Part shown: positions 2,069 to 64,000 of the stretch, in pieces
Position numbering within the stretch: position 1 is the first letter of the stretch
Layout: the number at the start of each line of letters is the position of its first letter
Origin: Isoetes taiwanensis
Lineage: Eukaryota; Streptophyta; Lycopodiopsida; Isoetales; Isoetaceae
Length of the DNA: 64,000 nt
Reading direction: 5' to 3'
Assembly (NCBI GenBank): GCA_021234155.1
Contig: JAJEKV010000003.1
Location: 22,535,569 to 22,599,568, forward strand
The notes under the pieces: model-generated
Databases searched by the model: none
What the model saw: only the letters and a program-made list of their open reading frames with translations
Told to the model about the DNA's origin: nothing
Position numbers and translations under genes: made by a program

Positions 2069-3756
2069 CCACAGCCCCACAAATAGCAATCAGGCTAAAA
2101 CTTGCATAGAATATGTTCTTCTATTTAATTGTAGATTGTGAGACAAGTTGTGGCTTAATAAGGCCCATACTTCTGTGGTCACAATGTCTAAAGCTCCATC
2201 ACAAACTTAACTATCATTAAACATCTGAACAAGCAGTAGCAGATGAGTCTTCCGCATCAAATACTTTGGGTTCCTTTCTTGAACTGCTACTTAGAGAGTT
2301 CCAGTAAAAATTTTATTTGATCTTGAATCACATGCCGTAGATGTTCCTTCCTTCTCATTCCTGGAAATTCCTCATTTAGTTGGTTCAAGCAAAGACCATA
2401 GTTTTCTTGTTGATTGTTTTCCAGCTACGCTCATAGGGAAGTTACTTCTTCAGACTTGTGTAACAAGCAGGATAAGCTATATTGATGTGCAACTTGTGTA
2501 AGACTACAGAGATAGTCTTCCTTTTTTGATCTTCAACGTCGTCGCGAATTAATTTTCTAGCACTCATGTTCCCGCACCAACGAGAGCAGGCAGGTCAAGT
2601 CCATGCTCTATAGCATCAGCATGATCTTGTAGCACATAATGATTAGACTAGTTCTTCCTATCAACTTTAATATCAACGTTCTGTATAGTAGAAAAAGTGT
2701 GTACATGTGCAGTATCCAAGCATTCTACTAGTACGATTCACAGCTTATGCCACATTTCATTGAGGACTTCAGCCTTGAATTGAGAAGAACTAGCATGTAA
2801 ACGGTGCAGTCTTTATTCCTTCTAATAGTTTAGAATACTCTTTGTTGCTATTATGGGATCCTGGAGCACAGAGAGACTTTATTCGTTCGTGCCAATTGGG
2901 TGGTTTATGGGTTTACTCTTTTCTATAGACAGAGGTTTGCAACATATCCTTATTATCATACAATATAGTAGTGGTTAACATATTGATAGCTTAGCTTAGG
3001 GGAAATCAGAAATTTGTCATTATGCACAACATAAGAGTCATTATAAAAGTCTCAAACGTTTTTGTACATGAGAAGAATGGAAACGTTTTCCACAATGCCA
3101 AAGAACTGTGCTAAACTTGCATAGAATATGCCGCCCATGAAAATATAGAACGTGAGGAGCTTGTGGCTTAAAACGCCCATGTTTCGTGATTCACAAATGT
3201 CCAAAGCTCCATGGCAATCTCAAGTATTATTGAACCTCTGAACAAGCAGTGGGTCTTCTGCATCAAATACACTTCCAAGGATCTTAACATTCATATCCAT
3301 GTTCTTTTAATTTTGCCAATGAGTTTCTAATCTTCACTTATTTAAAATAGATCAAGGACAAGAATCCCTTTCTAGGTTCCTTTCTTGAACTGCTACTTAA
3401 GGAGTTCCAGAAAAGTTTTTTGTTGATCCTGAATCACATGCTGTAGATTTTCTAAAAGTGTAAGGCAGTTTGTGCTCTTAATAAGGTAACTTTACAGGCA
3501 TTAGAAGCCATGATCAAGAGCCCTTTATTAAGTTTCCTAGCATTCAACAGATGGCGTTGCTCTGCAAAGATCCAAGAATTCTACTAATACAAGTCGTTGT
3601 CTATGTCACATTACATTGTGGACTTTAACCTTCACTTGAGAACAACTAGCATGCAAACAAAATCTAGAGGACTGCTCTTTTCTATAGGCAGAGGTTTGCA
3701 ATGCGTCCCTACCATACATCCCTTGCAGGAAGCCTCTAATATACAATGTGGAGTAG
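2069..3756. other. Non-coding segment upstream of the inverted repeat
   Basis: AT-rich sequence with no convincing ORF. Two stretches of it resemble each other (agttccagwaaa followed by a tgatc(t/c)tgaatcacatg motif near 2300 and near 3400), so it contains an old internal repeat. It is retained in the distal copy at 32265-34565, where part of it is tandemly duplicated. Confidence 0.5.
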
Positions 3757-4435
3757 TGGTTAACACGTTGACAGTTGAGCTTAGGGGCCAAATCACAAAG
3801 TTCTCATTATCCATAACTAATTTGCCAGCACGTATTTGCCATTAAGGCCAAAAATTATCTGACAAATGTGTACTCATAGGAGTAGGGAACAAGTTATACA
3901 TTTTTGGGAAATAAAAGCACCGGTTACTGAGACAAGTAGATGGAGATTCCTTTGTGTCATAGCTAGTAACTTGATATGGAGATTCCTTTGTGTCATAGCT
4001 AGTAACTTGATATTGTCAAAGTGTAAGGCAATTTGTGCTCTTACATTGAATAAGCCATATATGATCGGTGCAACTCCCATTATGAAGCTTCTAAGCTACT
4101 TGTTATAACATGCACTCTGCCCTTTGACACAACATGCTTGGTTGTAGAGGCAGTGGTAAATGGGGCCAGAAGTGTGGTTAGAAACTGCATTGACCTCTTC
4201 ATACTTAATAAGGCTAATCTCACTTTATTTCGGGCATTAAAGCCATCATCGGTCAACAGCTTCGTAGTGTTAACTTTTTAACATACTTGTTATAACATGC
4301 AGAACTCACTCTGCCTTTGACATAACATGCATGATTTGTGGCATAAGCATTAGTAAGTGTGGCAGTCCATAAGAATGCATTGTGCGCAGGCATGGTGCTA
4401 GAAATATACAAGTTTGCACACATAATGATTAGACT
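3757..4435 (+). repeat. Left arm of a long inverted repeat (proximal copy)
   Basis: The reverse complement matches 9098-9812. The outer edge is ttaacacgttgaca and the inner edge is aatgattagact. The arm contains two copies of a module with ttgttataacatgc, then gcctttgacataacatg (around 4100 and 4285), and a 36 bp tandem duplication. The two arms and their spacer look like a large foldback or inverted-repeat transposon, about 3.3 kb once the younger LINE is subtracted. I see no transposase in the spacer. Confidence 0.7.
3940..4011 (+). repeat. Perfect 36 bp tandem duplication
   Basis: Two identical adjacent 36 bp units, each starting atggagattcctttgtg and ending agtaacttgat. The right arm has only one comparable unit, so the duplication arose after the arms diverged. 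The distal copy near 34735-34805 keeps both units in mutated form. Confidence 0.85.
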
Positions 4436-6113
4436 AGATCTTCCTATTATCTTCAGTAACCAAGTTTCTGTATACTAGGAAAGGTATACTACATCTGATA
4501 GCATAGACATGAAAAGATAAAAGACCAAGCAACCAAAATAAAAGGAAGTGAATCTGTTTGAGCAAGTGAATCAGGCCTTGTAGGGTGTTTTGTGCAGATT
4601 TTTGTTGGCAAGCAATGTTCGGCCCTATTGCCCATTTTACATACCTTTCGCGTCATAGGTATCTGTGAAGCAACTTAGAAAACTTGAACCAAGTTTTATT
4701 CTTATTTTCAAAAGGAAGCTGATCAAACTTAGTAGTGGCATATGGCCTGGACTAAAAACTCTGCAACATAATTGCATATATCAGATATGCATGCTATTTT
4801 AGGCCTTTGCATGGTCTTTGGATTTATTTTTTAGGTCATGCTTCTTCAAGAAACTATTGTAGGCTTTAGGATACTTCTTTGCTTGTCTATTGCAGATGTT
4901 TGCAAATATGTAGATGGTAGTTTCACTTTCGTATATTATTGGAGTAATTAGCCTGATTCATATCTATGAATCAAATTAATGCTAAAATACATGCTACATT
5001 TGTGATTTTCTATCTAATGGCAAGTGTTTTCTATTTCAGTATTTTCATGCATAACAAGATAGTTCAAGAAGAAGTCTCTAGATACGGATGTATTGGCTAA
5101 GTGCGCATGTTTTGCAATCTCGAAGGGGTCATTTTGATTTTTTTTAATTTGATGTTGCAGGGCAGATTGGCATATGGGCCTTATATTTCAGTAAGTCATG
5201 AGGTCTATCTTCACAACCAATATTCCATTGCGGTTGCTGGCCTTTATACCAAGAAGGATTATTGTTGGGTCTTTTAAGTTAGAGCTTTTGCAGGAAGTAC
5301 TTTCTGCGGAAGAAATTCTAGGTACAAGCATTCCATTTTTTTGTTTTTATTTTATGTTCTACTGGCTCAAACTGTTCAATCTGCTGGATACATACATATA
5401 GCTACAAGACAATCTTTCATGATGTAGAGATCTGGCTATAGTGCATCAGCTCCTTTTATGCATTGCTAGCCTGTTAACTTCCCATGACGCTCTTGCAAAT
5501 GGCCACCACTCTGATAAAACAAATGGCCACCTCTCAGATAAATGCCATTGATCCCAATCTGAACTCCAAAGAATTTGTATATATACCCTTGCATCCTATT
5601 CATCTAGGCAAATACAAAGTGTAACCACATTGATGGCTTACAGATCTTTTTGCATCCTTGATGAGTTAACACCTTGATCATTCTTTTATATCCAACATTA
5701 GATGCATGATATATTTGGGAAAGGGACTATAAAAATCGATTCTTATGTATATGGTCTTCTTTATCTCTATTTTGCATATTGCTTCTATTTTAGTTTCATA
5801 AATTCGAGAGTCTGAGCTGTCTGGCAGAAATAGACATGCTCGGTTACAAATACATTATGTGACAGAAATAATGCTTAATGGTTAAGCACACATATGTGCT
5901 GACGTGGCAGCCTGTGTATTTACATAGGACCATGATTTATAGTTTAGCATATATTTAAGTTCATGTATGCCCCTAGCTAGGTTAGGTGTCAACATGCTGT
6001 GCTCTACACGTCATATACGTGACCATCTTCTGTAGCACCGAAGAAAAACAATCCAATCCATCATTTCTTTTTCTGAGTTCTTATACACATTAGAATTCAT
6101 TCAATTCTTCTTT
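4436..6113. other. Spacer of the inverted-repeat element, left part; no clear gene
   Basis: AT-rich and present in both copies (distal counterpart 35247-38590, with an extra retroposon). Around 5150-5340 there is a splice-like stretch: ttgatgttgcag acceptor, an open segment, then ctagGTACAAG. The peptide matches no family I recognise and the distal copy is broken there. I therefore do not call an exon. Confidence 0.45.
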
Positions 6114-8877
6114 TCGGGTGGGCACAGACAGTCGGGATGAGGAGGTCGACTCAGATCACCTCCCACTATATTTGGACCTGGTTTGGCGAGCCGCCAGAAC
6201 CCCCACTATGCCAGCCCCTCGCCGTCCTCAGTTGAGACTCGATTATGAGCAGGCAGAGGACTACGCCGAGATGCTCATGGACGCCCTCCCAGTAATTCTC
6301 GGAGACCTCCACACTAGAGCGTGCAGATGCACCCGGTGACTTCGCTATTACGGGATGCGGCGGACAGTGCTTTGGCGGACCCCCGTCGCCGCCGAGTCAG
6401 CAACATTCCCGCGAACCGATGGTTTGATGCGGTCAGAAAAACGCATAGCGGCGGCTCCGCCACATTCTCGATCCGGTACCCGCCAGGCCACCACCGCAAT
6501 GTCGCGCCCATCCGGCGAGGACACAAAGGCGCTTGTACCTTGCCAAGCATCGTGGGAGATGTTCGCCCTCTGGGACACTCATCCTCGAACCTTTGGCGCA
6601 GAGTGCTTGAAGGCCAGCCCGACCCTCTGGGGACATCACACCCGGCAAGTGGGAATAGTACTTGCAAAGCGGCTCTATGACCCGCCAGGGGACGCGTACG
6701 CCCATACCCCCCCAGGGATGGCCCCCCATTGGTTCTCGTGGGCCCGAGGATGTTGAGGAGGGCCTGCAACGGCTAGCTAATGGGAAGGCGGTGACCTCGA
6801 TGGTATCTTGCCGAAGTTACTCAAGTGGGCGGGCGGCCCGGCTTGTGCCGGTCCTCACTACCCTTCAACAACGCATTGCGGGGAGGGTTTCCCCGACAAT
6901 GGACCCTGGCGGGGTTGTTCCCATTCACAAGGCGACGACCCACACCGTCCGGCCAATTCTGGGACGATCATGGTCGGTTTCGATATTTGCCAAACCGTTG
7001 GCGGCATTCTCGAAAGCAGCAGTTGACCCGCTGGGCGAGGCGCGCGGATGTGCGAGCCCTCACACGCGAAGCTTTTCGACCCGCCACTCAACGATTGACC
7101 ATATCTTTACGCTGCGGGCATCGATTGAAGACAAAACCCGGAATCATCTACCGGACTTGTATTGTTGCTTTGTGGACTTCGCAAAGGCTTTTGATCTGGT
7201 CCCCCTGAAAAGATGTGGGCTAGACTACGTCCAACTGGGGCTCCCGCGCCGCGCGAATGCCATATACAAAGTTGTATGAGAGTTGTTTTGGCAGATGCAC
7301 CCGACGGGCCAAGCATTCACCAAGTAGTATCGGGTCCCAAGCGGGTTGCCCCTCTCGCCAACACTTTTTGGCCTCTACATTGATCAGTTAGAGCCCCGGC
7401 TTCATCGAGCATGGGGGATGGCATACGACTTTTGCACCAGGTCATCCGCCACCATCTATGCGACGATGTTGGCCTGCTGGCCCACACCCCCGAAGCTATG
7501 CGGTCTCACCTGGATGCCCTAGACACATTTTGTCGCTGGAGACATGACATGCGCGTCAATCTGCCAAGACCGGGGTGGTTCTCATATCCTTTCTTCACGT
7601 CACCCCATGCCTCCCCGCACTCACATATCGGGGGACACTCAGGGACGCCACGCCCCACCTACAAGTACCTAGGGGTGGAGTTCCCCTCCTCGCTCTGGCT
7701 GGGAGGCGCCTATCCGCTATGGGTGACAGTGGTCGGGAAGCTTTATGCCATGCGTAACAAATCACCAGGCGAGCTATATGATTGGGGCCATCAATCACAT
7801 CCGTTCCGCACCGGTCGAGCCCGTCCTTCAGACGGGGTCGGTTTGGGGCCCGGCCGTCTCTTTGGCGACTGGAATGACTTGGAGCAGTCAGTGTAAGGCA
7901 TTTTGGCACGGGCACTTGGGGTGAAACCTTCAGTCCCTATCGGTTCTCGCTGCAGAAACTGGATTCTTGCCGCCGGCCGGCAGCCCTTTGATAGACACAT
8001 CGTCTATTTTCGAGAAAGTGGTTACTATGGGTGATGCTCGGCTCCCGCACTGGCTTACACTATGGCCATGAGTCCAGCGGTTTGAGGGCCTGTTGGAGGG
8101 TAAGAGAGATCGGTGGTTCGCCCGATGGAACGTCGCAGAGCACGATGTCGCATACTGGGCGCAATGTGACCGATCGTGGCGTACCGCGGGAGTACCTAGA
8201 TGCTTGTTTCCTTGGCAAGCTCGGGACCCCATTGCTCTAGAGCAGGTCAAAATGGCCCATTACAAGGAGCACATCAACCCTCAGTTAGCCCGGGGCCCAC
8301 AAAATCTACCTCGTTCCCGGTGCCCCCGAAAAGCGCCACTCATTGCCTCCATTCGCATTGGTGCCCACCATCTTCGCGATCGAGACGGGCGGTGGATTGG
8401 GAGCCCCCGCCAGACAGGGCTCTGTCGGTCTTTGTCAAGCGGGTGCCATTGAGGATGAGTCTCACACTTTCCGTGAGTTGCCCAAGGTGTTCACCGGTCC
8501 GGGCGATCACGCTCCCTTAGTAATGCGGCGGACGTGCCCTTGCATTTGCCGATGAACACACCGTCGATGCGTGCCACGGGTCATACATCCAGAGGTACCG
8601 GACCCAAGAGGTCACATTTGCCCCGCACTTTGGTCATCCAATACTAGGCACTACGGGGTGGTGCATGACCAGATATATTGGGATGTTTTCATTTTTATAT
8701 GATTAGCACGGTTTTGTCGCAGGGGCCGATTGCTGCCACGGTTTTTCCCTCGAAAACCCTTTGGGGCGGGGGTTTTTTAATCCGGGCAGTAATCCGCTTG
8801 CTGCGTTTTTGTATTGGGTCCCATAGACCGATTGGTCTCCGTGGACGATAAAAGTACCTTCCTTCCTTCCTTTCTTA
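6114..8877 (+). mobile_element. GC-rich, 5'-truncated non-LTR retrotransposon (LINE), proximal copy only
   Basis: The GC content is visibly higher than in the AT-rich surroundings and switches abruptly at both ends. The distal copy has the uninterrupted site at about 38575-38600, and a related repeat at 10030-10060 also runs straight through, which proves insertion. The element starts inside the endonuclease domain, as expected from incomplete target-primed reverse transcription. It ends with gataaaagtac followed by a CTTC-type tail (about 8860-8877) instead of poly(A). Short ttctt sequences flank both ends and may be the target-site duplication, but I am unsure of its length. Confidence 0.85.
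6118..8560 (+). pseudogene. LINE endonuclease/reverse transcriptase polyprotein, frameshifted
   Basis: Signals run in order across all three frames. The endonuclease C-terminus S-D-H-L-P is at 6151-6165. An RT N-terminal block (LANGKA, then VVPIHK) lies around 6760-6930. The RT catalytic block FVDFAKAFD is at 7169-7195. GLPLSPTLFGLYID lies near 7345-7385. The second catalytic block is C-D-D-V at 7459-7470, where YADD has lost one base. A C-terminal cysteine/histidine segment with A-I-E-D-E-S-H is at about 8448-8468. The product would copy the element's RNA at a nicked chromosomal target. At least four frameshifts and the missing 5' half make it non-functional. The clade cannot be fixed by eye. 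Confidence 0.8.
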
Positions 8878-10742: not shown

Positions 10743-10747
10743 AGCAT

Positions 10748-11144
10748 TGTAGAATTATATGTGCTATGGTTTTTATAAACCATAGAGAAGCTAATGGTCA
10801 TTGAATATTATTGTTTGGTAATGATTCGATGATTTTGAATCTTACCATTAAGCATATTTCTAGATAACCCTAAATTCTAGCTCGGTGAACAGTATCCCGG
10901 GCCAGGTGGAAATAAAAGCTTTGATCTAGCTGCCGATTAGATCAACGAGTAGATATGATGATGGGGTTGCCAGATTTCGGTGATCCCCTAATATATTTAA
11001 GCAGTAGTTTACATTGTACAGGCAGGCAGATTGATTGTGAGAATGAATTGAATTCGTACATTCATTTTTGGCTATAGTTCAATTGTGTGACATTGATGCA
11101 ATAGGATAAGGTATTGTAGTCAGTTGATAAATTATTATCTTTCA
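10748..11144 (+). repeat. Copia 5' LTR (397 bp)
   Basis: Starts TGTAGAATTATATG and ends ATTATCTTTCA, immediately before the primer-binding site. It contains ccctaatatatttaagcag, a plausible TATA region about 145 bp before the 3' end. Five related LTRs occur in the window (10748, 18216, 40391, 48709, 50551). Confidence 0.93.
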
Positions 11145-11145
11145 T

Positions 11146-11157
11146 TGGTATCAGAGC
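11146..11157 (+). promoter_or_regulatory. Primer-binding site for initiator tRNA-Met
   Basis: TGGTATCAGAGC lies one base after the 5' LTR. This is the standard plant copia site, complementary to the 3' end of initiator methionine tRNA, where minus-strand DNA synthesis starts. In the distal copy (40780-40791) it reads TGGTATCGTAGC, altered exactly at CAG. Confidence 0.93.
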
Positions 11158-11168
11158 TAGATAGAACA

Positions 11169-11942
11169 ATGTCCACATGTTTTGGAGCTACATTGCTAAG
11201 TTCTGTTGAAGTATTTCAGGGGATTGGAGGCTTTCAGATATGGAAAGAAAGAATTAAAGAAGTCTTACAATTTGAAGGATTATGGCATATAATTGAGTCT
11301 AATGGTGGTGTTGATGATGAAGCTAGCAGCTCAGCAATAGGAGAGGCTTCAACTGCAAAATCTGGAGAGTCTGCTGCAAAATCTAAAGAGGTAAGTGTTA
11401 GTAGTGATAGAACAAGTGATGACTTAAAAATAAGTCAGGCTAAGGCTATAATTATGTGCAAGGTTGCACCAAGCATAATGCTTAAACTAAGGGATTTGAG
11501 TCCTAGAGATGCTTGGAAGTATTTACTCAAGACATATCAGACGAAAAGCTCATCCCAGATAGATGTTCTGGAAAAGGAAATTAGAAAGATGAGATTTGAT
11601 GAGAAAACTGAGCTGACCACAATGTTCCATAAGTTTGATTCCCTTTGTGCAGATTTAGAGGCAGCAGGGGTAACTATGTCTGTAAGTCATCAAATCTTGG
11701 CAATTTCCAAAATGTTTGCTAATTTTGGGACCTTGGCTACACTAATAAGGACTGTAGCTAGGACGAGGGAAGAGGCTGAGCAGATTGCAAGGACTGAAAT
11801 AGAGCAGAAGTCTGGTGTTGAAAATGAAAATGAGGATGAGGAAGATTCTGCAGAAGTGTTAGTGGTAAAAAAGGGAAAAGCCTATAATGAGTCAATGACA
11901 GAGGTAGGCAACTTGGTCCATGTTTTGGTTGTGGGGAAGTAG
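11169..11942 (+). CDS. gag: Copia Gag, N-terminal capsid part
   Basis: Opens at the first ATG after the primer site (MSTCFGATLL) and runs 257 codons. It shows the copia Gag pattern: an early F-Q-I-W-K-E tryptophan motif, GLWHII, a Ser/Ala-rich acidic linker, then DAWKYLLKTY, IDVLEKEI and a helical region ending in an E-rich tail. The protein packages element RNA into virus-like particles in the cytoplasm. The frame ends at TAG at 11940 within sequence that, one frame over, encodes the first zinc knuckle. A 1-base shift between about 11891 and 11921 therefore separates it from Pol. It could be a programmed shift, but a sequence error or mutation is more likely because most plant copia elements use one ORF. 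Confidence 0.9.
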   Translation: MSTCFGATLLSSVEVFQGIGGFQIWKERIKEVLQFEGLWHIIESNGGVDDEASSSAIGEASTAKSGESAAKSKEVSVSSDRTSDDLKISQAKAIIMCKVAPSIMLKLRDLSPRDAWKYLLKTYQTKSSSQIDVLEKEIRKMRFDEKTELTTMFHKFDSLCADLEAAGVTMSVSHQILAISKMFANFGTLATLIRTVARTREEAEQIARTEIEQKSGVENENEDEEDSAEVLVVKKGKAYNESMTEVGNLVHVLVVGK

Positions 11943-12832
11943 GGCATTTGAAATATAACTGCCCAAGAAGTGGTCAGAATGTGAGGACTTGTTGCACATG
12001 TGGAGGAGTAGGACATGTGGCGTCTAAATGCCCAAGCCCAAAGGACAGTGGCAGGGGCAGGGGCAGGAATAATTGGAATACAAATAGAGGTCGAGGCAGG
12101 AGTGCCAAAGCAGCTAGCACAAATGTTGTTGTTGTAGAATGTGAGGAGGAAGATTCAGAAGAGGAGGTAACAAATACTTTTTCTAATTATTTGAACAAAG
12201 TACAAAATGCTGAAGCATCTTTTGTTGTAGATTCGAGAGCTGAAAGAACAATCATAGGATCTTCAGATTGGCTGACAAGATGTGATAAAGAGCAGAAGAC
12301 AAAGAATATACATTTGGGAGATGGTAGGGTTAAAGAAGTGAAGGCTGGAGGCATGCTGAAATTATTTGATTTGCAAGGAAGACCAGTAGAAATAGAAAAG
12401 GTTCTTTGTGTGCCTTTTATAGTGAAAATTTTGATTTCTGTAAGTCAATTAGTTGACCTTGATTATCAGGTCCTATTTGACAAGCGTGTTTGTAGAGTTG
12501 TGAAAGATAATAAAACATGTTTTTTGGGCAAAAGGGTTAAGGATCTCTTTGAGTTGGATGTTTTTGAAAATGTGCCAGCAGTTAATCATGTATCAATTTC
12601 CAGTTATAAAACTTGGCATGAACGTTTAGGACATACAAATATAAACAATGTGAAAGCTCTGGACAAACTTGGATACATTAATGCCGCCAAAGAAGATCGA
12701 GAAGAATTTTGTTTTATGGGGTTGCATGGTAGGAAAAAGTACTTTCGACTTCCTTTTGGCGGGGAGATTCAAGAGAGCGAAAACACCATTGAACCGGTTC
12801 ATACGCATACATATGTGGCCCACTTAATATAA
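11891..12832 (+). pseudogene. pol: Copia Gag zinc knuckles, protease and pre-integrase
   Basis: The frame is open from 11891. Two CX2CX4HX4C knuckles follow, C-F-G-C-G-E-V-G-H-L-K-Y-N-C at 11921 and C-C-T-C-G-G-V-G-H-V-A-S-K-C about 65 bases later, for RNA binding. The aspartic protease site is present as V-V-D-S-R-A (about 12226-12243), where the family has D-S-G-A. The Gly-to-Arg change should inactivate it. The GAG-pre-integrase segment with W-H-E-R-L-G-H lies near 12616. The frame ends at 12832 after a 1-base shift inside the start of the integrase core, where the first catalytic aspartate of the usual HTD motif is not readable. Confidence 0.85.
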
Positions 12833-13630
12833 GAAGTCTTTCTGGAAAAAGGTATTTCATCATCTTTATAGATGATTTCACTAGAAAAGCAAAATGCTAC
12901 TGTTTAAGAAAAAAATATGAAGCTTTGAAAGCATTTAAAGAATATGTGAATGAAGTAGAAAGAGAAACAGGTACAAAAGTGAAATGTTTAAGATCTGACC
13001 GGGGTGGTGAGTATATCTCAAAGAATTTTAAGGCCTTTTGCATTGAGAAGGGAATTAAAAGACAATTAACATGTAGGTATTCTCCCCAGCAGAATGGGGT
13101 AGCAGAAAGAAAGAATAGAACATGTTTAAATGCAGTCAGTTCTATGCTAAAGCATGCTGGATTACCAAATATGTTGTGGGAAGAGGCATTGAAGACTGCA
13201 ATTTACATACAAAACAGGGTTCCAAGTGCAAGTATTGATGGAGAAATACCTGAGCTGCTGTGGTCTAAACGAATGCCATCATATGAAAGGTTTAGAATCT
13301 ATGGTTGCTTGGCATATGTACACATTCCAGAAGAATTGAGAAATAAATTAGATGACAGGGCCTTGACTGGTTTTTTAATTGGATATGATGAAGAATCTAA
13401 GGCATATAGGTGTTATGTCCCAAGCAGGAGGAAAATAGTGATAAGCAGGGATGTTATATTCTCAGAAGAACAGCTATATAAGGATCTTAAGGATCTGGAT
13501 GTACAAAACAAGAAGAAGACAGTTGAAATGGAAAACACAAATCATAAGTCTGAAATTGATAGTGATGATGATGGGGACTCAGACAAAAAATCACAGGTTG
13601 GCATAGAGGATAATAATCCTGACAAAGAGA
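12815..13630 (+). pseudogene. pol: Copia integrase, interrupted by nested element
   Basis: From C-G-P-L-N-I-R the frame gives F-I-I-F-I-D-D-F-T-R-K, then the second catalytic aspartate in L-R-S-D-R-G-G-E-Y (about 12991) and the catalytic glutamate in Q-N-G-V-A-E-R-K-N-R (about 13093). The C-terminal copia region follows with GCLAYVHIP and V-I-F-S-E-E. The enzyme inserts the cDNA into the host genome. The reading frame runs into the nested LTR element at 13631 and resumes in phase at 16386 after the 5 bp AGAGA repeat. Confidence 0.88.
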
Positions 13631-13804
13631 TGATAGCCTGAGGAAATCCTGAAGGATGAAGGAAAGACAAGGACAGAAGCGTAAGCGCCTACTAGCTCCT
13701 AGAGAGTGAACCGAGAAGAATGAGGCGTGACTATGGCTAATATAGAGTGCCATGTCAGCAACAAGTGATGACTCAGCATGCACAGTCATCATCATACTCT
13801 AACA
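13631..13804 (-). repeat. LTR of the nested element (3' LTR on the minus strand)
   Basis: 174 bp, nearly identical to 16212-16385. Plus-strand ends are tgatagcc and tctaaca. Shared internal text includes actagctcctagagagtg and gaggcgtgactatggc. Differences again sit at CAG-containing words. Confidence 0.9.
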
Positions 13805-13812
13805 TCCCCCCT
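13805..13812 (-). promoter_or_regulatory. Polypurine tract of the nested element
   Basis: Minus strand reads AGGGGGGA directly before the TGTTAGAG start of the LTR, the position where plus-strand DNA synthesis is primed. A second tcccccct near 13865 is a partial duplicate of this border. Confidence 0.75.
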
Positions 13813-15059
13813 GATGATGTGCATGGCTGAAAAAAACAAAACTATAAATCCTAGGGCTAACATCCCCCCTGAGATGTTACATGTCCTAAAATTCAGCATA
13901 TAAAGCAAGCTCAACCACATAAGTAACCATGGGTGCCACTGAAACTTGGTTTTAAACCATATTTTTCTGCCTCTGTACCATTCTCGTGTCTTTGTGATGT
14001 AGACATTCATACTAATTGATATAAGATCCAAAGATGGGACCGATAACCCATATCAACAATATATATCTTCGCAGCGGCATATACCTTTCTCAAAAAATCT
14101 GATTCATTGCTATGGTAGAACTCACAAATCACATCCGACAATCTTCCAATCATATCAAGATCATACAAATCCAATGAATTATTGTTTGAAGATTCGATTG
14201 ATCCACCCCAAAACCGCTCTAGTAGACTTTCAAGAGAGTGACTTGTATGGTCATATATATCAAGAATAATTAATACCGATTCTCACATGCAAGCATCCGT
14301 AATTTACCTTTAGCCTATTGGTGAATCCCCGCAATACCGTGGTAAGAAATATACCCCAAACAAATATCCAAGTTAGAATGATCCTCCACCTTCCCATCAT
14401 GTGTGCAAGCAAATGGAATATGTAGATGAATATAAAGTGGAAAATCGACTTCATGTTTACTAACCTTGGTGATTATGGAACTAAAACCAAAGATTCTCGC
14501 TCATATATATCCATGCAAGGAAGTTGAAGAACCAACTCATCTTTGAAATCTGCAGATACACTTGATGCTCAAATATTTCATCCCTATGCTCATGCAGACA
14601 AGCCACATGCAAATCATCTTGTTCAGATTCAACTATAACATCTTGGTCTTGTTCTAAATCAGTAGGTGCAACTGTTTCCATATATGAATTATTTTGACCT
14701 TTGTCGTACATGATCTTCTAGGAGACATAAACTAGTGAGAGCATCCGGCGCCCAGGCTTCCATGGCTTATTTTCCAGCCTAACCTTTGCAAAGATACTCG
14801 ATATGGACATGAAGATAAATCAAATCAACCTCAAGATAATCATCATATTTACCTTCACAGAGCTGAAATTCTTGTGAAAAATGGGAAACATCATAGCTTT
14901 TCAGCAAATTCATATTGTCTTTGACAATAAAAACCATATCGGACTGCTCGCTTGATCCATGCAAAGATGCTCTTCTTCATCTTGTAATCACCATGGCACA
15001 ACGCTCCAAGAACTCCTTCTTGAACAATTTCAAGATCATCTCTCATGTCCGCCATAACG

Positions 15060-15410
15060 ATCTATCTCAAATTTAAACTCCAATGAATCCACCATAGTTC
15101 CTTAGAACTAGAGAACACATCTAATACCCAAGGATGTATTTCTTTATCAATTGCCGCTTAATAGTACTCAAAGCAATTTCATCTATCGCATCAAAATTGT
15201 CCTTGTCTTCTCGTGATCTCTAACCGTGTATGCTTCCCAAGAACAATATCCAAATGTTCCCGCCCATAGGAGTAAAGAAGCTTATGCATGAAAATTTTCC
15301 AGCTAGAATAATTTTCATGTGCTAAGAACTCAAATGAAGCCCAATCATATGCTTTGATGGCATCTGCCCGTAGAAGTCCATAGATCCACCCAAAGATACG
15401 GTCCTACTAT
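15060..15410 (-). pseudogene. gag: Partial copia-type Gag in the nested element
   Basis: Minus-strand translation across two frames gives A-Y-D-W-A-S-F-E-F-L-A-H-E-N-Y-S-S-W-K, then L-L-Y-S-Y-G-R-E-H-L-D-I-V, then D-E-I-A-L-S-T-I-K. After a shift comes H-P-W-V-L-D-V-F-S-S-S-K-E-L-W-W. The N-Y-x-x-W-K motif, the D-x-x-A-L-x-x-I-K helix and the K-E-L-W-W end are the order seen in copia Gag proteins. The distal copy (45546-45728) keeps the same N-Y-S-S-W-K segment. Nothing after it resembles pol. Frameshifts coincide with copy-to-copy differences, so the intact reading frame is not certain. Confidence 0.5.
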
Positions 15411-16211
15411 TGATCTATATGCTTTTGATTATCAATAACCGTAGTGCAAATAATCGCACAAATGCTAGCATAGACGCCCGCATCCTAGCCCAAACTTGAG
15501 ATCCGGAAATAATCAAGGTTCCCAAACTTGAGATCCGCACAACAAAGTTGAGATCCGCAAGAACTCGTGCCGCAAAATCCAGATCCAACCAAATTCAGAG
15601 CCAAATCGAGCTCCAAGTTCTAAATTCGGTGCCCCTCTGTCAGAATTCCAAGTGTGGCCCTATCCGACCAACAAAAATAGAACGCACCTTTTTTTTTTTC
15701 TCCCGATAAGCCACGAACCAAAATAATTGTGCCCACCATGCAATATATCTCCGATTATACAAATTTATTGTCGATTTGCCATATGGCACAAATCCGACTC
15801 AAAATATCTTCGCACGTAAATCCGACCCTTTTAGGGTTCTAACCTTCGATCCGCAAGATCCGCATGCTAAAAACACCGATCCGAAAGCAAATCCTTCATA
15901 TTCTTCTTCAACCTTGTGGTGTAGATCCGCACAAAATCCATTACAATGCAAAGAACGCCATTCGTGAGCTTTGCTCCTTTGCAGCCAATTGATCTTGCAA
16001 GGAATCTTGCCAAGAAATTGACTCGAGTTTCACTCGATCTAATCCATCCCGCATTTCTAGAGCATCCAGATCAAGAGATCTCGTAACATCCGTGTGTCAA
16101 TCGCACCAAGCCTTTGAGAGCTTAACTTCCAAGTCAAAAAACTCACCGAGAATTTTGAAGATCAACCGTGATCGACTTGCTAACCTCCCCCTTCGATCGG
16201 CCTCGATACCA

Positions 16212-16385
16212 TGATAGCCCCGAGGAAACTCAAGGATGAAGGAAAGACAAGGACGTAAGCGTAAGCACCTACTAGCTCCTAGAGAGTGAACCGAGAAGAA
16301 TGAGGCGTGACTATGGCTAATATAGAGTGCCATGTCAAGAACAAGTGATGACTCAAAGATGCACAAATATCATCATACTCTAACA
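16212..16385 (-). repeat. LTR of the nested element (5' LTR on the minus strand)
   Basis: 174 bp partner of 13631-13804, followed on the minus strand by the primer-site-like TGGTATCGAGGCC at 16199-16211. Distal partners are 43986-44157 and 46520-46690. Confidence 0.9.
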
Positions 16386-17330
16386 AGAGATAGTACAAGA
16401 AGAAATTATTGTTAGTAAACAAAGGAAAAGGATGTCCAAGCGTAAAGACTTAAAAAAAGAATTGGCGCACAAAGGAATTAAGGTTGATGAGCTTGGAAGG
16501 GAGGCTGATGGAAAAGCAAGAGATTAGAGATAGTAGTAGAAGAAGTGGTCCCACATTTGATGGCCGTAATGGACAATGATGTGCCACACACACCTATGAA
16601 GAAGCAATAAATGATAAAAACAACAAATATTGGCAAAATGCCATGAATGAAGAGATGTTAGCTTTTAAACGATCGAGACATTTGAAGTAGTTAACAGCCG
16701 AGGGAGAAGAATATTGTGGGAAACAGATGGATTTTAAGATAAAAGATCTTCCGTGATGGATCAAAAAATTTAAGGCTAGACTTGTTGTTCGTGGATTTAC
16801 ATAGCAAAAGGGAGTTGATTATAATGACACGCACTCATCAATAGTGAAATTATCCAAAGATAAGAATTATGCTAGCACCGCCAACTCAATGAACCGGAAA
16901 TTCATCATATGGATGTTAGTACCGCATTTCTAAATGCAGAGTTGGAGAAAGAAATTTACATGAAGCCACCCTTAGGATTTGAAGAGAAGAAAGATAAAAT
17001 ATGGAGGTTAAAGAGGGCAAGATACCTGGACTTAAACAATCACCTAGAGCATGGTATACATGTATGGATAAATATCTCACGTAATGGGATTTGGAAAGCT
17101 GAATGGAGATGGGAATTTGTATGTATTCAAGCAAAGATGATCATTTTTGTCTCATTGCACTTTATGTAGATGATTGCGTTATGTTCTCTAATAATTTGGA
17201 TTGCTTGGAAATGTGCAAGAAATTAGTTAAATCCAGATTTAAGATGACAGACCTTGGAGAGTTGAAGAAGTTCTTAGGGATTAAGGTGATCGAAATAGAG
17301 AGGAGTGAGTCAAGTTGATTATGTGCAAGC
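16386..17330 (+). pseudogene. pol: Copia reverse transcriptase, frameshifted
   Basis: Pol resumes with IVQEEIIVSKQRKR. The RT core shows H-H-M-D-V-S-T-A-F-L-N-A-E-L (first catalytic aspartate, about 16912), I-Y-M-K-P-P-L-G-F, G-L-K-Q-S-P-R-A-W-Y in a shifted frame near 17040, and the catalytic Y-V-D-D in L-Y-V-D-D-C-V-M-F at about 17162-17182. L-G-E-L-K-K-F-L-G-I follows. The segment 16540-16900 is broken by stops and shifts in several frames. It would reverse-transcribe element RNA, but as written it is dead. Confidence 0.85.
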
Positions 17331-17557
17331 CGTGCTTGAGAGATTTAAAATGGTTGAATGTAATATAGTAGGTACTCCTCTCGATCCCGTGACATAAGAT
17401 CAGCAAGAAAATGTGCCCCTCAAACCGAGGAAGAGATTGAATATATGAAAGGTTCCATACAGAAAGTTTAATTGGTTGTTTGTTACATCTATCGTGGGCT
17501 ACAAGACCCGACATTGCTTTTGGCAAATAATTTATTAAGTAGATATAACAACAACCT

Positions 17558-18071
17558 GTGGAGACAAAGATCAAGCAAGCAAATAAACGTGTTCTAAGGT
17601 ATTTGAAAGGAACAATAGATCAGGGAATAATATTTAGAGACAGAGGATGCATCATTGAGGGATTTGCGTGCATGCACCGGGGTGGGGATGTGGATCAAAG
17701 ACATTCAACATCAGGTTATGTAGTTCTGATTGGAAAAAATCCAGTAAGCTGGAAATGTAAAAACCAGAGCACAGTGGCATTATCTAGTGCAGAGGCTGAA
17801 TATACAGCCATAACTTTAGCATCTAAGGAAATCATATGGATAAGAAGACTTTTAGTCGAAACATATTGAGATGAAACAACATTTCATAAGAGAGATGGTG
17901 CAAAGAAAAATGATAGCAGTTAAGTATGTTTCTACAGAAAGACAATTAGCAGATATATTGACTAAGGCTCTAAGGGAACCTAGATTTAACATGTTAAAAA
18001 ATCTGTTAAGTGTTCAGAGAATAGAAGGAAGAAGAAGTGGTAAAGAAGAAATAATGGTCGAAAAAAATTAG
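17558..18071 (+). pseudogene. pol: Copia RNase H and C-terminus
   Basis: Open from 17558 with RVLRYLKGT, then G-D-V-D-Q-R-H-S-T-S-G-Y and the very typical A-L-S-S-A-E-A-E-Y-T-A (about 17785-17815), giving the RNase H acidic residues. After a 1-2 base shift near 17869 the tail continues as H-F-I-R-E-M-V, V-K-Y-V-S-T-E-R-Q-L-A-D-I-L-T-K to 18071. This domain degrades the RNA strand during cDNA synthesis. The region between 17330 and 17558 (connection domain) is frameshifted. Confidence 0.88.
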
Positions 18072-18205
18072 GTCTGCGGGCAGCTATTACCCGGACCTCG
18101 CCACGCACACCGTGGAACCTCGTGGAACCCCAAAAATTTTGCCGATTAGGGTTTCGCGCCGATTTTTAAGTTTACAATCATGAGTTCAATCCAGGAATAT
18201 TCAAT

Positions 18206-18215
18206 GATGGGGAAG
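18206..18215 (+). promoter_or_regulatory. Copia polypurine tract
   Basis: The sequence gatggggaag lies immediately before the TGTAGAATT start of the 3' LTR and would prime plus-strand synthesis. The same border recurs before the LTRs at 48709 and 50551. Confidence 0.85.
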
Positions 18216-18613: not shown

Positions 18614-18899
18614 AGCATCGCTTCATCCCCTTGCACGTAGACGATGAGTTCTCGCAGTGTTGTCTCTATTCAAGCATGGTATGAAGCGGTCACCTACTAT
18701 CTTGGCCCAATTTTCGTGCAAAGTTCCCGCTTCTCGTTGGGATGTATCTCTATGGGAGAATATCGCAAAAATTTGCCTCTTATAGTGCAAGGTGGTGTTG
18801 TCCGAAAGGGTGCCATGGTCATGAAAATATTCACAAAGGCAAGCACTTTGTCGGGTTGATGAAAATATTCACAAAGGCAAGCACTTTGTCGGGCAGTCG

Positions 18900-48291: not shown

Positions 48292-48293
<2 letters not shown>

Positions 48294-48322
<29 letters not shown>

Positions 48323-48541
48323 GGGTATTTTAACGTCACTACTCAGGGCAAGATCCAACCTGACATGTGACCACACCATAATATATCGCCACGCCTGGGC
48401 CCCTCGCCCCCAACCACTTTATATTGCATCTCGTGGGTTTTGACACCTAACAGCCTGTGAAAAGAGCCCGGGCGTCTCGAACTGAGACCCATAGTTGCAA
48501 GAACTAGTGTTACCACTTCAATTCGCAAACACCCGTGACGC
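48294..48541 (-). mobile_element. tRNA-derived SINE, distal copy only
   Basis: Absent from the orthologous proximal site near 18045. On the minus strand it starts GCGTCACGGGTG, has an A-box-like GAAGTGGTAACAC and a B box GGTCTCAGTTCGAGACGCC about 30 bases later. It then has a tRNA-unrelated body and ends TGACGTTAAAATACCCC plus seven TATC units (48294-48322 on the plus strand). AAGAAGA occurs at both edges and may be the target-site duplication. The two boxes form a polymerase III internal promoter. The 3' end closely resembles that of the SINE at 60740. Confidence 0.85.
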
Positions 48542-48708
48542 AAAGAAGAAATAATGGTCAAAAAAATTAGGTCCGGCGGGGCAGTTTATTACCCGGACGA
48601 CGCATACCGTAAACCCTGTGTACCCCATGCCTCACGATTAGGTTTCGCTACCGATTTTCAAGTTTACAATCATAAGTTCAATCCGGTGAATATTCAATGA
48701 TGGGGAAG

Positions 48709-49100
48709 TGTAGAATTATATGTGCTTATGGTTTTTATAAACCATAGAGAAGCTAATGGTTATTGAATATTATTGTTTGCAATGGTTCGGCTGATTTTGA
48801 ATCTACCATTAAGCATATTTCCGATAACCCTAAATTCTAGCCCTAAGAATAAAGATCCCGCTGTGTGGAAACAAAAGCTTGATCTAGCTTCCGATTAGAT
48901 CAACGAGTGGATAAGGATGATGGGGTTGCCGATTTCTGTGATCCTAATATATTTGTATGCCAGTAGTTCAGCATTGTACGACAGTGTATTGACTGTGAGA
49001 AATTAGAATTGAATTGCACATTCATTTTTGGCTATAGTTCAATTGTGTGACATTGATGCAATAGGATAAGGCATTGTAAGTCAACATACCATTATCTTCA
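48709..49100 (+). repeat. Copia 3' LTR (distal copy)
   Basis: Preceded by the polypurine border gatggggaag; starts TGTAGAATT and ends ATTATCTTCA. It is followed by agaccggctcatcccctgc, corresponding to the LINE remnant after the proximal 3' LTR. Confidence 0.88.
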
Positions 49101-50389
49101 AGACCGGCTCATCCCCTGCATGCAGACTATGAGTTCGTGCAGGTGTTGTCTCTATTCAAGCATGGTATGAAATGGTCACCTACTATCTTGGCTTCAATTT
49201 TCGTGCAAAGTTCCCGCCTTCGGATGTATCCTATGGGAGAATATCGCAAAAATTTGCCTCTTATAGTGCAAGGTGGTAAGGCCGAAGTGTTATGGTCATG
49301 AAAAGATTCACAAAGGCAAGTAATTGGTCGCTGATGAAAATATTCACAAAGGTACACTTTGTCGCCTGTGTCGTGACAGGCGTGTATGGCTTTGGGATAG
49401 GTTGTTCCACCCTAAAGTCTCCGCATTTGCGGTGGCAAAAGTTATCCATGTGTGCCCCGCAGGTGTTAATGCCTTTCACATCACTATGATCCTCGTGACA
49501 CGCAAGATGCCCGCTTCCTTCGTATTGAGACTTTGAGCATTGTCTCTTTGATTGTTCTGAGGTTCAACCAGCGTGGGTCCTCGCCAAGGCGTTTATTTAA
49601 AGGCATGGACCGCCGATGCATTCTTGGCGCCCTATCCCAATGCATGCTACCCGCCCAAACAAAGGGCATTCCATTTGCTCCGTTGGCTCCTATGGTCAAT
49701 ATGGGACCATCGCAGTATAATTACATCTTTCAGCATTAATTCATTTTGCATGCAGTAGTTATTACTATGACCTGTGAAAAGATATTGACAAAATGAAGGA
49801 AGTACAACACATATTTATCTCTCATGAATCCTCCCCGGAGAAACAGGAGGATTTTGTATCGGACTTAAGATTTGGGAAAGGGGAGGGAGCCCCTTAGCAA
49901 GTACTCTCCCATCTTCGTGATCTCGATTATGGAAGAATGTATCATACGGCCAGTAAATAATTGTGGTTAAATATCGACATGGAATAGTTGTAATGGGCTA
50001 CCAAGCAAAGAATTTCTCCGCTAAGGAAGCGTGACAGTGATAACGTTACGGAGATCCTCAAGAATGTCACTTATGTTTCAGGAGTTGTTGGGTTACAAGA
50101 AAGGTGGCTACTCCGATGGATGTCAACACATAAAGGTGTCAAAGTATCTTATCAATTTCTAGGTCAAGACGCTCCGTTAAAAGCGTAGATAAGATCGAAT
50201 GAGAATGTTGCATAAAGTGCTTTTAGCCAATTTAGAATCCATCAGCTCCAAGAAGATTCAATTCTTCATATGGATGGCCCCTTTGAAGGGGGGCTATACA
50301 AATGTGAGTTTATATAATGGTATAACAGATGTAGACAATGTCATTTGATGTTCGTCTTGGAATCCATCAAATGATGATCATGGTTGGAT
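49101..50389 (+). mobile_element. LINE 3' remnant with zf-RVT segments, truncated copy
   Basis: Matches 18619 to about 19925 and contains both zf-RVT-like parts in degraded form. The KIQFFIWMA word lies near 50250. It stops matching at about 50389 and is followed by ~100 bases of unrelated sequence before the next repeat unit. Confidence 0.65.
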
Positions 50390-50550
50390 CCTATATGGAG
50401 ATATCCTTCTACAAAGTGTGCATGTATACAAAAGTTTTGCCCAACGGATGTGTGGTGAGTTGGTATAGGCCTAGTAATGCCAAAATAAATGCGCCGATTT
50501 TCAACTTTACAATCATGAGTTCAATCCAGGAATATTCAATGATGGGGAAG

Positions 50551-50950
50551 TGTAGAATTATATGTGCTATGGTTTTTATAAACCATAGAGAAGCTAATGG
50601 TCATTGAATATTATTGTTTGGTAATGGTTCGATGATTTTGAATCTTACCATTAAGCATATTTCTGGATAACCCTAAATTCTAGCTCGGTGAACAGTATCC
50701 CGAGCCAGGTGGAAACAAAAGCTTTGATCTAGCTTCCGATTAGATCAACGAGTGGATATGATGATGGGGTTGCCAGATTTCGGTGATCCCCTAGTATATT
50801 TAAGCCGTAGTTCACATTGTACGACAAAAGTGCATTGATTGTGAGAATGAATTGAATTCGCAGACATTCATTTTTGGCTATAGTTCAATTGTGTGACATT
50901 GATGCAATAGGATAAGGTATTGTAGTCGGTTGATAAATTATTATCTTTCA
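50551..50950 (+). repeat. Extra copia LTR from the local duplication (400 bp)
   Basis: Starts TGTAGAATT, ends TTATCTTTCA and is followed by AGCATCGGGCTTCATC. Because the copia polypurine tract and 3' untranslated end precede it, it is not a classical solo LTR formed by LTR-LTR recombination. It was carried along by tandem duplication. Confidence 0.85.
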
Positions 50951-52918
50951 AGCATCGGGCTTCATCCCCTGCACGTAGATCTATGAGTTCTCGCAGTGTT
51001 GTCTCTATTCAAGCATGGTATGAAGCGGTCACCTACTATCTTGGCCTAATTTTCGTGCAAAGTTCCCCTCTCTCGCTGGGATGTATCTCTATGGGAGAAT
51101 ATCGCAAAAATTTGCCTCTTATAGTGCAAGGTGGTGTTGCCGAAAGGGTGCCATGGTGAAAATATTCACAAAGGCAAGCACTTTGTCGCTTGATGAAAAT
51201 ATTCACAAAGGCAAGCACGCGGTCGCACATGGCGATGGCTTTGGGATAGGTTGCTCCACCCTAAAGTCTCTCAGACTATGGTGGCAGGTTATCCATTGTG
51301 TGCCACGGGTTAATGCCTTTCGACATCACTATGATCCTCGTGATACGCAGTAAAGATGCCCGCCTCGTTTTTCGTGACGCTGAGACTTTGAGCATTGTCT
51401 CTTTGATTGTTCTCGAGGTTCAACCAATAAGTGGTCCTGGCTACAAGGTTTATTTAAAAGTACATTGGATCGCCGATGCATCCTCTTGGCGCCCTATCCC
51501 AATGCATGGCCTCCAGCCTAAACAAAGGGCATTCCATCTTGGTTCTGGTTGGCTTCTTATGGTCAATATGGGAGCATCGCAGACACCACATCTTTCGTGG
51601 CATTAATTCATTTGCATGTTGTTATTACGGTGGCCCGTAAAAGATATTGATACCGAAGGAAGTACAACACATATTTATCCTCTATGAATCCTCCCCGAGA
51701 AACAGGAGGATTTTGTATTTTTTGGAACACGAAGATTTGGGAAGGGGAGGGTTTCCCTTAGCACTCTCCCATCTTCGATCTTGATTAAGTGGAAGAATGC
51801 AGGTATCATATGGTTGCAACACTGTGGGTTAAATAGCGATGGAATAGTTAAACGGCACAAGCAAAGAATTTCCTCTCGCTAAGGAAGGTGACAGACAACG
51901 CTATTTCGGAGATCCCAAGAATGTCACTTATGTTTCGTGAGTTGTTGGGTTACAAGAAAGGTGGCTACCGATGGATGTCAACATTACAAAGGTGTCAAAG
52001 ATCTATCAATTTCTAGGTCAAGACGCCCGCTAAAAGCGTAGATAAGACGGGAATGAGTAACGCCGTGGCTAAAGTAGTTTTAGCCAATTCTTAGAAATTC
52101 ATCAGCTCCAAGAAGATTCAATTCTTCATATGGATGGCCCTTGAAGGGGGGCTAAGTACAAATGTGAGTTTATATAACAGGGGTATAACAGATGTAGACA
52201 AATGCTCATTTGGATGTTCGGGTTCGGGAATCCATTGGGCATCGATGATCATGGTTGGATCATGATCTTTTGCCCCATGATCATGGAGTACTGACATTGG
52301 GTTAGCCCCATCATTCGTTTGTCTGTCCTCGAATTAGAATGGTCATGACTGATATTGATCTCAGATAGAAGCTGTATTGATGCCTCACTTGTGAACATTG
52401 CTCTTTAGCTGGTCTGGAAATACCATTGGTTTATGCATTGAAGGGCTTGAGATTTCTATTGCAAAACTAAAAACATGTTTAACTGGAAGTAGCATTGATG
52501 GGTTTATCGCACTATAGGCGTAAGGGTAGGAGATATAACAAAAATACTTGATAGACTAGGTGCTTTGAAGGATTCTATTCCTTCTTTGGATGCATTCGCC
52601 AACAAGGATGGGATAGAGGAAAATGATGCCGACAATGTTGCCGCAAATGTGGCGCTTATTTAATGTTAACTATATCGAAAGTATCAAGTGGGGGTTCTAG
52701 GTGTGGAAAAGGAGTTGCCTCTCTATAGTACCGCCTTTGGAGAAGATTCGTGATCCCCATATAGTATCCACATGGTGGGGAGAAAAGATGATGCTCTCTT
52801 TGAGTACCGCATTGGTAAAACCCTCCACATTTAGCTGTAATTGCTCTATCTTCCCTACATGGGACCACGCCTTTTTATATTATAATTTAATCTAATCTCC
52901 CTCAAAAAAGAAGAAAAA
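50951..52918 (+). mobile_element. LINE 3' remnant with zf-RVT segments, third copy
   Basis: Collinear with 18619-20588 through the A-rich tail (ctccctcaaaaaagaagaaaa) at about 52900-52918. The W-x-x-L-W-D..H-P-K-V and C-L-F-D-C words are readable near 51240 and 51400, and F-F-I-W-M-A near 52120. The sequence is closer to the proximal copy than 49101-50389 is. Confidence 0.65.

Positions 52919-60849: not shown

Positions 60850-60850
<1 letters not shown>

Positions 60851-60926
<76 letters not shown>
60851..60926 (+). repeat. (TATC)19 microsatellite
   Basis: 76 bases of perfect TATC, directly after tgacgtcaaaatac. The long Y-L-S-I frames across it on the plus strand are artefacts. Confidence 0.97.
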
Positions 60927-60951
60927 ATCAATGTGGCATGACGTCAAAATA

Positions 60952-61074
<123 letters not shown>

Positions 61075-61076
61075 GC

Positions 61077-62217: not shown

Positions 62218-62886
62218 TCATTTTTGTGGCATAGTTGCCATGCTTGTCGTTGTTCGTCCGCTTCCAAGTTGAATCGAGTTGGCAACTATCTTCCTCTTCT
62301 TCATCTTTGGAGCTGCCATTCCTTGTGTTGCTTGTTGCTCCCATGGCTGCCATTCACGCGGATACGTACAAGTGTTCCAGTGTTCACTTCCAAGTCCAAT
62401 TGATGCATTGACCAAGTCATGCATGGCTGTACTGGCTTCTTCTGCTTCAACTTCACTATCTCCTTTGCAGAGATTTTCTTGTATTGATTGAAAAAAGTTG
62501 ACAAAGTCCTCGTCTAGGACTTCCAACTCTTTTTCTTTTTGTGACGTTTCTAGGTCAAGCTTAAGCAAGTTTTCCTCAAATAAGTCCTCGTCAAAATCAT
62601 CAAGAACGTCTAAAGTAGGAGCTGGAAAAGACGCATTGAGCAAGTCTTCGTTACCTCTTTTCAACACAGGCGGTTCATCGGCATCAAGTACGTCAATAGA
62701 TGCTAGGGCGTCCTTCTGGTCCAAGCTCCTCAGATAGTTGAATTCCTCCGCAGTCAAAATAAATTCTTCGTCGTCAAGCTCCGCCATTGTGAAAGTCCTC
62801 CTTGAAAATGCTGTAATGCGACATGTGGAATGAATGGGAGTCTTATAGACCCCGTCTTGTTGCCTTGATTCCCAAGTTATCCCCAT
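62218..62886 (-). CDS. Acidic protein of unknown function, intact ORF
   Basis: The longest uninterrupted non-TE-looking frame in the distal copy: 222 codons, or 189 if translation starts at the methionine at 62787, which begins the compositionally coherent part (MAELDDEEFILTAEEFNYL). It is very rich in Asp, Glu and Leu, with a central D-V-L-D-D-F-D-E-D-L-F-E-E-N stretch, then a Trp-containing segment and a basic end, M-K-K-R-K-I-V, that could be a nuclear localisation signal. No membrane segment or signal peptide. I do not recognise the family. The proximal copy is frameshifted. It may be a host exon, or an ORF of the nearby putative DNA transposon. Confidence 0.45.
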   Translation of the reverse strand: MGITWESRQQDGVYKTPIHSTCRITAFSRRTFTMAELDDEEFILTAEEFNYLRSLDQKDALASIDVLDADEPPVLKRGNEDLLNASFPAPTLDVLDDFDEDLFEENLLKLDLETSQKEKELEVLDEDFVNFFQSIQENLCKGDSEVEAEEASTAMHDLVNASIGLGSEHWNTCTYPREWQPWEQQATQGMAAPKMKKRKIVANSIQLGSGRTTTSMATMPQK

Positions 62887-64000
62887 TTCTTAAAATATCT
62901 CCTAAATATATCAGTGATATTTAGGGGAAAGCCGTGTACAGATGCCCTGCTGGAGCACAGAGCCGCGGCCATGGATATACCAACACAGATTGCATTCCGA
63001 CGGCCATAGATGGAGCAGTTTCAAAAGGAGGAACAAGAGATGTGGTACTATTTTTCAAAGAAATGGCGTGGAATTTCTTGCCGAGGAGCATAATGCACAG
63101 AGATTTGGCTATGGCAGGTTGTAGCTCTTAAATCCATCAGAAATCCTTGGTAATTTAGGTTTTCATGCACTTCCTTTCCTTAAAATTTCAATATTCTAAT
63201 GGTTATATCAGCGAAGTTGGTAAGAATGCACCTATGGCAGTTGAATTCTTACAGAGAAATGGCTGCAAAGCCCGTGAACTATTTTATACTGAAAGGGTGC
63301 ATCTTCAAAACATGGACCACTGATGTGGTGCATCACCGCATAGGCCGCCTATGCAAACCGTTATGCAGGTTTCTCTCATACAAACTCGCAATTTAGTAGA
63401 GATTCCGAAGTTTTCCATGCCTTTCATAGAAGGTTAGCATCGATTGCAAAAGATGCGGGTGGCATCAATGTTTAAAGGCAAAAATAATTGGCTGGAAAAT
63501 ATTAGTAGTGGTTTTCGCCAATGGACCTTCATTGGGCTAGATTTTTGACCGCCAGGGTGCCTTCTAGTGGCTGTTTTAATTTCGTGGATTGACCAAAGAG
63601 AGATAGTGGGAGACACCATTTTTGAATTGGTTGGGCAGATAGGGAATTGCACAGAATATCTGAGACAGTTGGTGTGCCATGAGTGGTGCACCTATGATGT
63701 ATTCAGTTTGATTATTGAATGGAAACCTTTGATATGTTCATTGAAGAGGCTACTTTATATGGAGAGCAAGAATAAATTTTGCTTTTGGCATGTACCGTTG
63801 AAGGATTGGAGGAATAATAAAGCTCATGACATGATAAAAAAGATTGCACGGAGCTAGAAGAATCCTCTATGAAGCCCTGAAGACTCCTATGGACATACAT
63901 TATGAAGGTGGTATACGGAACCCAAAAAAAAAAGGATGATGTAAGCAAAGGCAGGTTGCTTGTTATTTCAAAAGAAGATATTGAGAAACAGAAGAAGGGA
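62887..64000 (+). other. Weak transposase-like region (distal copy)
   Basis: The best frame is 63567-63857: I-V-G-D-T-I-F-E-L-V-G-Q-I-G-N, then Y-M-E-S-K-N-K-F-C-F-W-H-V and N-K-A-H-D-M-I-K-K-I-A-R. In the next frame comes L-W-T-Y-I-M-K-V-V-Y. The C-F-W-H-V then basic helix is reminiscent of MULE/FAR1-type transposase cores, but catalytic acidic residues cannot be assigned. Upstream, P-M-A-V-E-F-L-Q-R-N-G-C-K-A near 63233 is open but unrecognised. Confidence 0.3.

Follow-up and report, generated by a model that had tools for sequence, protein, structure and literature searches.

Plant tandem arrays with long units are already known, and as far as the passages of PMC6808082 describing it go, the EPSPS array of Kochia scoparia is the system closest to the locus presented here, which lies on contig C1034 of Isoetes taiwanensis in a 64-kb window (the whole stretch of DNA that was analysed, C1034:22535569-22599568). 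Both are tandem arrays in a plant with units of tens of kilobases, more than one unit length and an inverted copy at the site, and in both a mobile element is at play, the junction shows microhomology and growth by unequal crossing over is proposed. In the Kochia array a herbicide-target gene is under selection and a mobile element is implicated between the units, whereas at the Isoetes locus the units meet at a T-run with nothing else between them, and those that were read did not reveal a selected gene. We regard the locus as an ordinary segmental array of a known kind with an unpolished fill. Such a fill has a described counterpart as well, since long-read gap filling with TGS-GapCloser inserts raw segments that need correction, as stated in the passages on that tool (PMC7476103).

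Comparisons of the window with itself and with the genome (1.66 Gb in 1110 contigs) indicate that it very probably represents the left end of a genuine segmental array with head-to-tail units, of which it contains units 1 and 2, and that its sequence is partly unpolished. A direct duplication of about 30 kb with elements recurring in order had been proposed in the initial annotation and was confirmed by a direct collinear chain running from 2065/32261 to 31218/63965, with blocks that are 81-91% identical and offsets of 30.2 to 32.7 kb. The edges proposed at 2069 and 32264 turned out to be exact to the base, as TTTT at 2065-2068 and 32261-32264 is followed by CCACAGCCCC at both starts. The array can be divided as follows:

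1 to 2064, no strand assigned: left flank of the array; among 17 loci tested, positions 1500-2054 occurred in the window's own copy and nowhere else
2065 to 2068, plus strand: T-run at the left breakpoint, in what sequence comparison suggests is the ancestral left form, CAAATG-TTTT-CCACAG
2069 to 32264, plus strand: unit 1, 30,196 bases, delimited by self-comparison, genome search and the downstream unit
32254 to 32270, plus strand: junction of unit end and unit start, TTTATTC-TTTT-CCACAG
32265 to 64000, plus strand: unit 2, truncated by the window end, delimited by self-comparison and genome search

A genome search with the unit tail gave at least 45 matches, a lower bound that counts the query itself and fragments. 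Two of them fall on contig C945, and the other 43 are spread over both strands of C1034 from 22.57 to 24.44 Mb. Eight plus-strand tails stand in a row with spacings of 32.8, 28.5, 24.0, 34.7, 40.0, 35.0 and 27.5 kb, which does not support the idea of only two copies. The junction was inspected at 12 of the 45 matches, and all junction counts refer to these. In all eight plus-strand loci examined (L001-L008; seven on C1034 including the window's own, one on C945) the unit end passes into the unit start at the identical T-run. The minus-strand copies that were inspected (L015, L020 and L028 on C1034, L025 on C945) all four differ from this, as their tail continues with TTTATTC-T(n)-ACTTTGC or ACTCTGC. 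The left form CAAATG-TTTT-CCACAG occurred a single time in the sequence examined, at window position 2059. Both other forms of the junction are thus visible next to the junction itself, and only the T-run is common to them.

Furthermore, a full unit of 28.5 kb (C1034:22600606-22629076) is located between two junctions, and the next unit start follows directly after it. Over 4 kb, plus-strand copies with clean sequence on C1034 share 91-96% identity. A fresh tandem segmental duplication full of nested transposons had been proposed earlier. Its tandem and transposon parts are upheld by the complete downstream unit and the seven other loci with the junction (six on C1034, one on C945) and not by the window's own junction, but the observed identity does not support the word fresh.

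On C945, within positions 1592872-1608955 (L025-L027), a plus-oriented unit end passes through the same junction into a unit start, and an inverted tail without the junction is also present. C945 may represent the other haplotype of the array or a part of it that was not placed. Positions 2-1513 of the left flank recur near 22.80 Mb with 90% identity (C1034:22800358-22801850, and inverted at 22808891-22810321), close to the last plus-strand tail of the row. An older self-repeat of about 1 kb, with pieces that are roughly 71-89% identical, is present at the unit start (2045-4500) in both copies.

The segment 31201-32264 had been noted as unmatched, and indeed no partner was found inside the window. 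The genome search placed this partner at C1034:22599561-22600608, straight at the window end (22599568), so that the segment lacks a match only because the window stops before it. The last 35 bases of the window taken alone gave no significant continuation of the homology past 31218, with 101 of 1000 shuffles scoring equally well. The offset shifts between both copies, which had been attributed to private insertions throughout, can be explained in this way for three inserts, one of about 2.8 kb in copy 1 and two in copy 2 that measure 1.7 kb and 764 bases. The remaining shifts are due to simple repeats, two short tandem repeats that are best read as unmerged overlaps (see below) and a stretch of 247 bases private to copy 2 (48295-48542), which has an AGAT repeat at its start. 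AGAT/CTAT simple repeats were seen at 48293-48322 (7.5 units) and 60850-61074 (about 56 units) and were reported in copy 2 only.

In the best supported scenario, the array would have started with a tandem duplication of one unit, in which two unrelated points were joined at the T-run by a microhomology of about four bases. The units would then have increased in number, most likely via unequal crossing over, and would have come to differ from each other by a few per cent, while transposons would have gone on inserting in single units, giving tail-to-tail distances of 24 to 40 kb. The first of these steps is based on the sequence itself and the second is our inference. It is also conceivable, although unlikely, that a real array grew via a circular intermediate, with an extrachromosomal circle being copied and reinserted, instead of by unequal crossing over. 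One junction common to the examined plus-strand units and a copy with this junction on C945 would be in line with a circle, but the units differ from each other and some form nested groups, which fits stepwise growth, and C945 is possibly an unplaced piece of the same region.

A second layer of the locus concerns the quality of the assembled sequence, which changes abruptly within the window. The features in question are:

25500 to 50390, plus strand: patch interpreted as unpolished raw nanopore reads, with its left edge defined to about 100 bases, based on the identity step, the C/T skew and private changes
32622 to 33953, plus strand: head-to-tail repeat of 0.65 kb (32622-33264 and 33277-33953), interpreted as an unmerged overlap, from self-comparison
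33261 to 33276, plus strand: final 16 bases of a nanopore ligation adapter, an exact match to the adapter printed in the part of PMC7490894 that gives it, with a chance expectation of 3e-5
48542 to 52261, plus strand: repeat of 1.85 kb (48542-50390 noisy, 50494-52261 cleaner), interpreted from the alignment as an unmerged overlap at the end of the patch

Measured against the 40 kb of contig that follow the window, the best matches average 94.8% identity from 2.1 to 25.4 kb, 84.1% from 25.6 to 50.3 kb and 91.8% from 50.6 to 63.4 kb, and the level changes stepwise near 25.5 kb and again at 50.4 kb. C/T versus A/G mismatches amount to 180:194 left of the patch, 744:394 in the patch and 145:147 right of it. 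Such a strand skew points to read error, since evolution should affect both strands of DNA alike, while reads base-called on a single strand can produce it. According to the relevant passage of PMC8486125, nanopore substitutions viewed in the direction of the read are most often A-G exchanges, and the C/T excess therefore suggests that the reads of the patch lie on the minus strand. Within the long terminal repeats (LTRs) of one Copia insertion, 36 and 49 private changes were counted in the patch versus 4, 5 and 2 outside (rate tests, p 4e-7 and 2e-9). In agreement with this, the locus spanning the window junction (L001) is only 78-83% identical to the ten other copies compared, whereas L002-L007 are mutually 91-96% identical and the C945 locus L008 is 86-89% identical to L002-L007. 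In trees, the end branches of the patch pieces have lengths of 0.19, 0.13 and 0.12, compared with 0.002-0.033 for other C1034 copies and 0.05-0.12 for the C945 copies.

The two small tandem repeats of copy 2 are, on the basis of the alignments, best read as overlaps that were left unmerged through read noise. The end of the adapter stands between both versions of the 0.65-kb repeat, whose halves are equally noisy (66 versus 65 private changes). Position 33277 would then be the end of a molecule, and the adapter would belong to the molecule extending rightwards from there, whichever direction was read. Counted from alignment column 300 onwards, private changes in the 1.85-kb repeat number 290 in the noisy copy and 86 in the cleaner one, and the 103 bases between them (50391-50493) matched nothing tested in the window. 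A PacBio hairpin was rejected as an explanation, as its scores were inside the shuffle range. Taken as a whole, about 25 kb of the assembly (25.5-50.39 kb, approximately C1034:22561070-22585960) would be unpolished nanopore sequence in which one adapter was kept and two overlaps were not merged. That this patch arose when a gap was filled with raw reads is inferred, as is the number of true units that it represents. The similarity to gap filling of the TGS-GapCloser type is that raw long-read segments stand between better contig sequence, and the difference is that the passages describing the tool (PMC7476103) contain neither the retained adapters nor the unmerged overlaps seen here.

Several observations weigh against this interpretation of array and patch. 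The junction was checked in just 12 of the 45 tail matches (eight with it, four without). Between the window copies, CpG sites show an excess of C/T and G/A mismatches that is similar on both strands (0.24 versus 0.10-0.11 and 0.17 versus 0.03-0.05), and part of the difference is therefore real or linked to methylation and not all error. The two C945 copies are long-branched as well (0.05-0.12). The clean parts carry insertions and deletions (indels), too, with 1.6 and 2.6 events per 100 columns, so that clean is a relative term. Finally, the right-hand mean of 91.8% comes mostly from one next unit and the left-hand mean of 94.8% from the better of two.

We conclude that the apparent divergence of both copies is mostly sequencing error, with a real part. 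A three-way alignment bears on the unit or haplotype from which the patch reads come. Here, 50 substitutions group unit 1 with the noisy piece against the clean piece of unit 2, while 23 unite both pieces of unit 2 against unit 1, and polishing errors could explain this. Counts by codon position are roughly flat, which is compatible with error as well as with decay. Five clean LTR columns pair the two 5' LTRs, and the divergence of the LTRs therefore began before the copies parted.

Faulty joining in the window itself is shown by the noise of raw reads, the adapter and both unmerged overlaps. This speaks for an assembly artefact, in which a single locus, present as two haplotypes or as several reads, would have been placed head to tail without any tandem duplication; the different transposon inserts of both copies would also be possible for haplotypes. 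The initial annotation had raised two haplotypes joined during assembly as its alternative, but the same breakpoint recurs in seven other plus-strand loci on two contigs, with low noise on C1034, and joins made falsely and separately would not all fall at the same breakpoint. A complete unit is located between two junctions and the 64-kb window contains no N bases, so that no gap shows between both copies, although a filled one is possible as the junction lies inside the patch. For the same reason the junction at 32264, which had been named as a deciding place, is a poor site for a decision, as its surroundings are unpolished. In view of the genome-wide tail matches, the shared junction and the complete unit, we reject the view that falsely joined haplotypes or reads account for everything, and an artefact without tandem duplication appears very unlikely. 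The homotype false duplications described in parts of PMC9516828 are similar in that read errors block the merging of overlaps, as at 33264/33277 and 50390/50494, but they cover the two small repeats only, whereas the junction of the 30-kb unit recurs elsewhere.

That the window sequence is accurate and its two copies are simply old and about 15% diverged is hardly credible and was rejected, as the CpG-enriched transitions on both strands and the diverged C945 copies, which speak for some real difference, are opposed by a tenfold difference in private changes between LTRs of one insertion (rate tests), by skew and noise that end at sharp edges, by the adapter inside and by the 91-96% identity of the other C1034 copies.

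The following elements were recognized in the head-to-tail units with their unpolished fill:

6112 to 8876, plus strand: insert of about 2.8 kb resembling a long interspersed nuclear element (LINE), private to unit 1 and absent from copy 2 and the two next units; no clear target duplication, left edge approximate
10748 to 18613, plus strand: Copia element with LTRs at 10748-11144 and 18216-18613, a primer site at 11146-11157 and AGCAT at 10743-10747 and 18614-18618; collinear in copy 2 and the next units
35741 to 37422, minus strand: retroposon-like insert private to the patch, reversed, with a poly-T start on the plus strand and the target duplication (C)AGATATTATT; the site is empty in the next unit
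42097 to 42860, no strand assigned: hAT-like insert of 764 bases private to the patch, with the 8-base target duplication TTTGACAA and the ends CATGGAATAAA/TTTATTCCATG; the site is empty in the next unit
62218 to 62889, minus strand: acidic open frame of 223 amino acids, with no Pfam family above the cut-off

The element at 10748-18613 is a Ty1/Copia retroelement, as it combines two LTRs, a 5-base target duplication, a presumed primer site, and gag and integrase domains of the Copia type; an SH3-like domain was found in addition. Its gag sequence has matches of 95-97% at three further places of the array and a fourth of 56% with seven stops. The insert at 6112-8876 gave RVT_1 only at an E-value of 0.084, below the cut-off, and a LINE-like region of the unit gave an endonuclease (E 0.031) and RVT_1 (E 7.8e-06), both under the Pfam cut-offs. 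No tRNA and no Rfam family at gathering score was detected in the window. The partner of the acidic frame in unit 1 falls inside the patch and is broken by indels. Relatives of this frame are present in other units and in minus-strand copies, with 51-79% identity in the two better-kept ones that were compared.

Pieces of a SLAC1-type anion channel (Pfam E 2.4e-18) were found in two minus-strand copies, L015 (4281-5851, C1034:22823281-22824851, minus strand) and L020 (C1034:22876909-22878477), and none at the corresponding point of the window and the next units. The L020 pieces match those of L015 at 100% in shifting frames, which suggests leftover indel errors. Together with the primer site of the Copia element, the channel pieces point to a plant origin of the DNA. 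A gene selected for its dosage was not found in the units read, whose contents are transposon domains and the acidic frame without a family, with SLAC1 only in the two minus-strand copies. It is a bold and very improbable idea that a plant amplification of about 1.9 Mb (the 43 tail matches on C1034 between 22.57 and 24.44 Mb) arose from one microhomology-joined duplication near sister copies bearing SLAC1 and is still growing by crossover or circle, which would provide natural variation in the dosage of a channel gene.

With both layers taken apart, the true array can now be separated from the assembly damage laid over it. An age of the duplication calculated from the window alone would be several times too old, the two small tandem repeats could be mistaken for biology and read errors for broken genes, and the raw patch is a warning that the repeats of this assembly need polishing before use. 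For the biology of such loci, the junction is of interest because both of its other forms are preserved nearby, and it thereby shows how an array of long units in a plant may have started.

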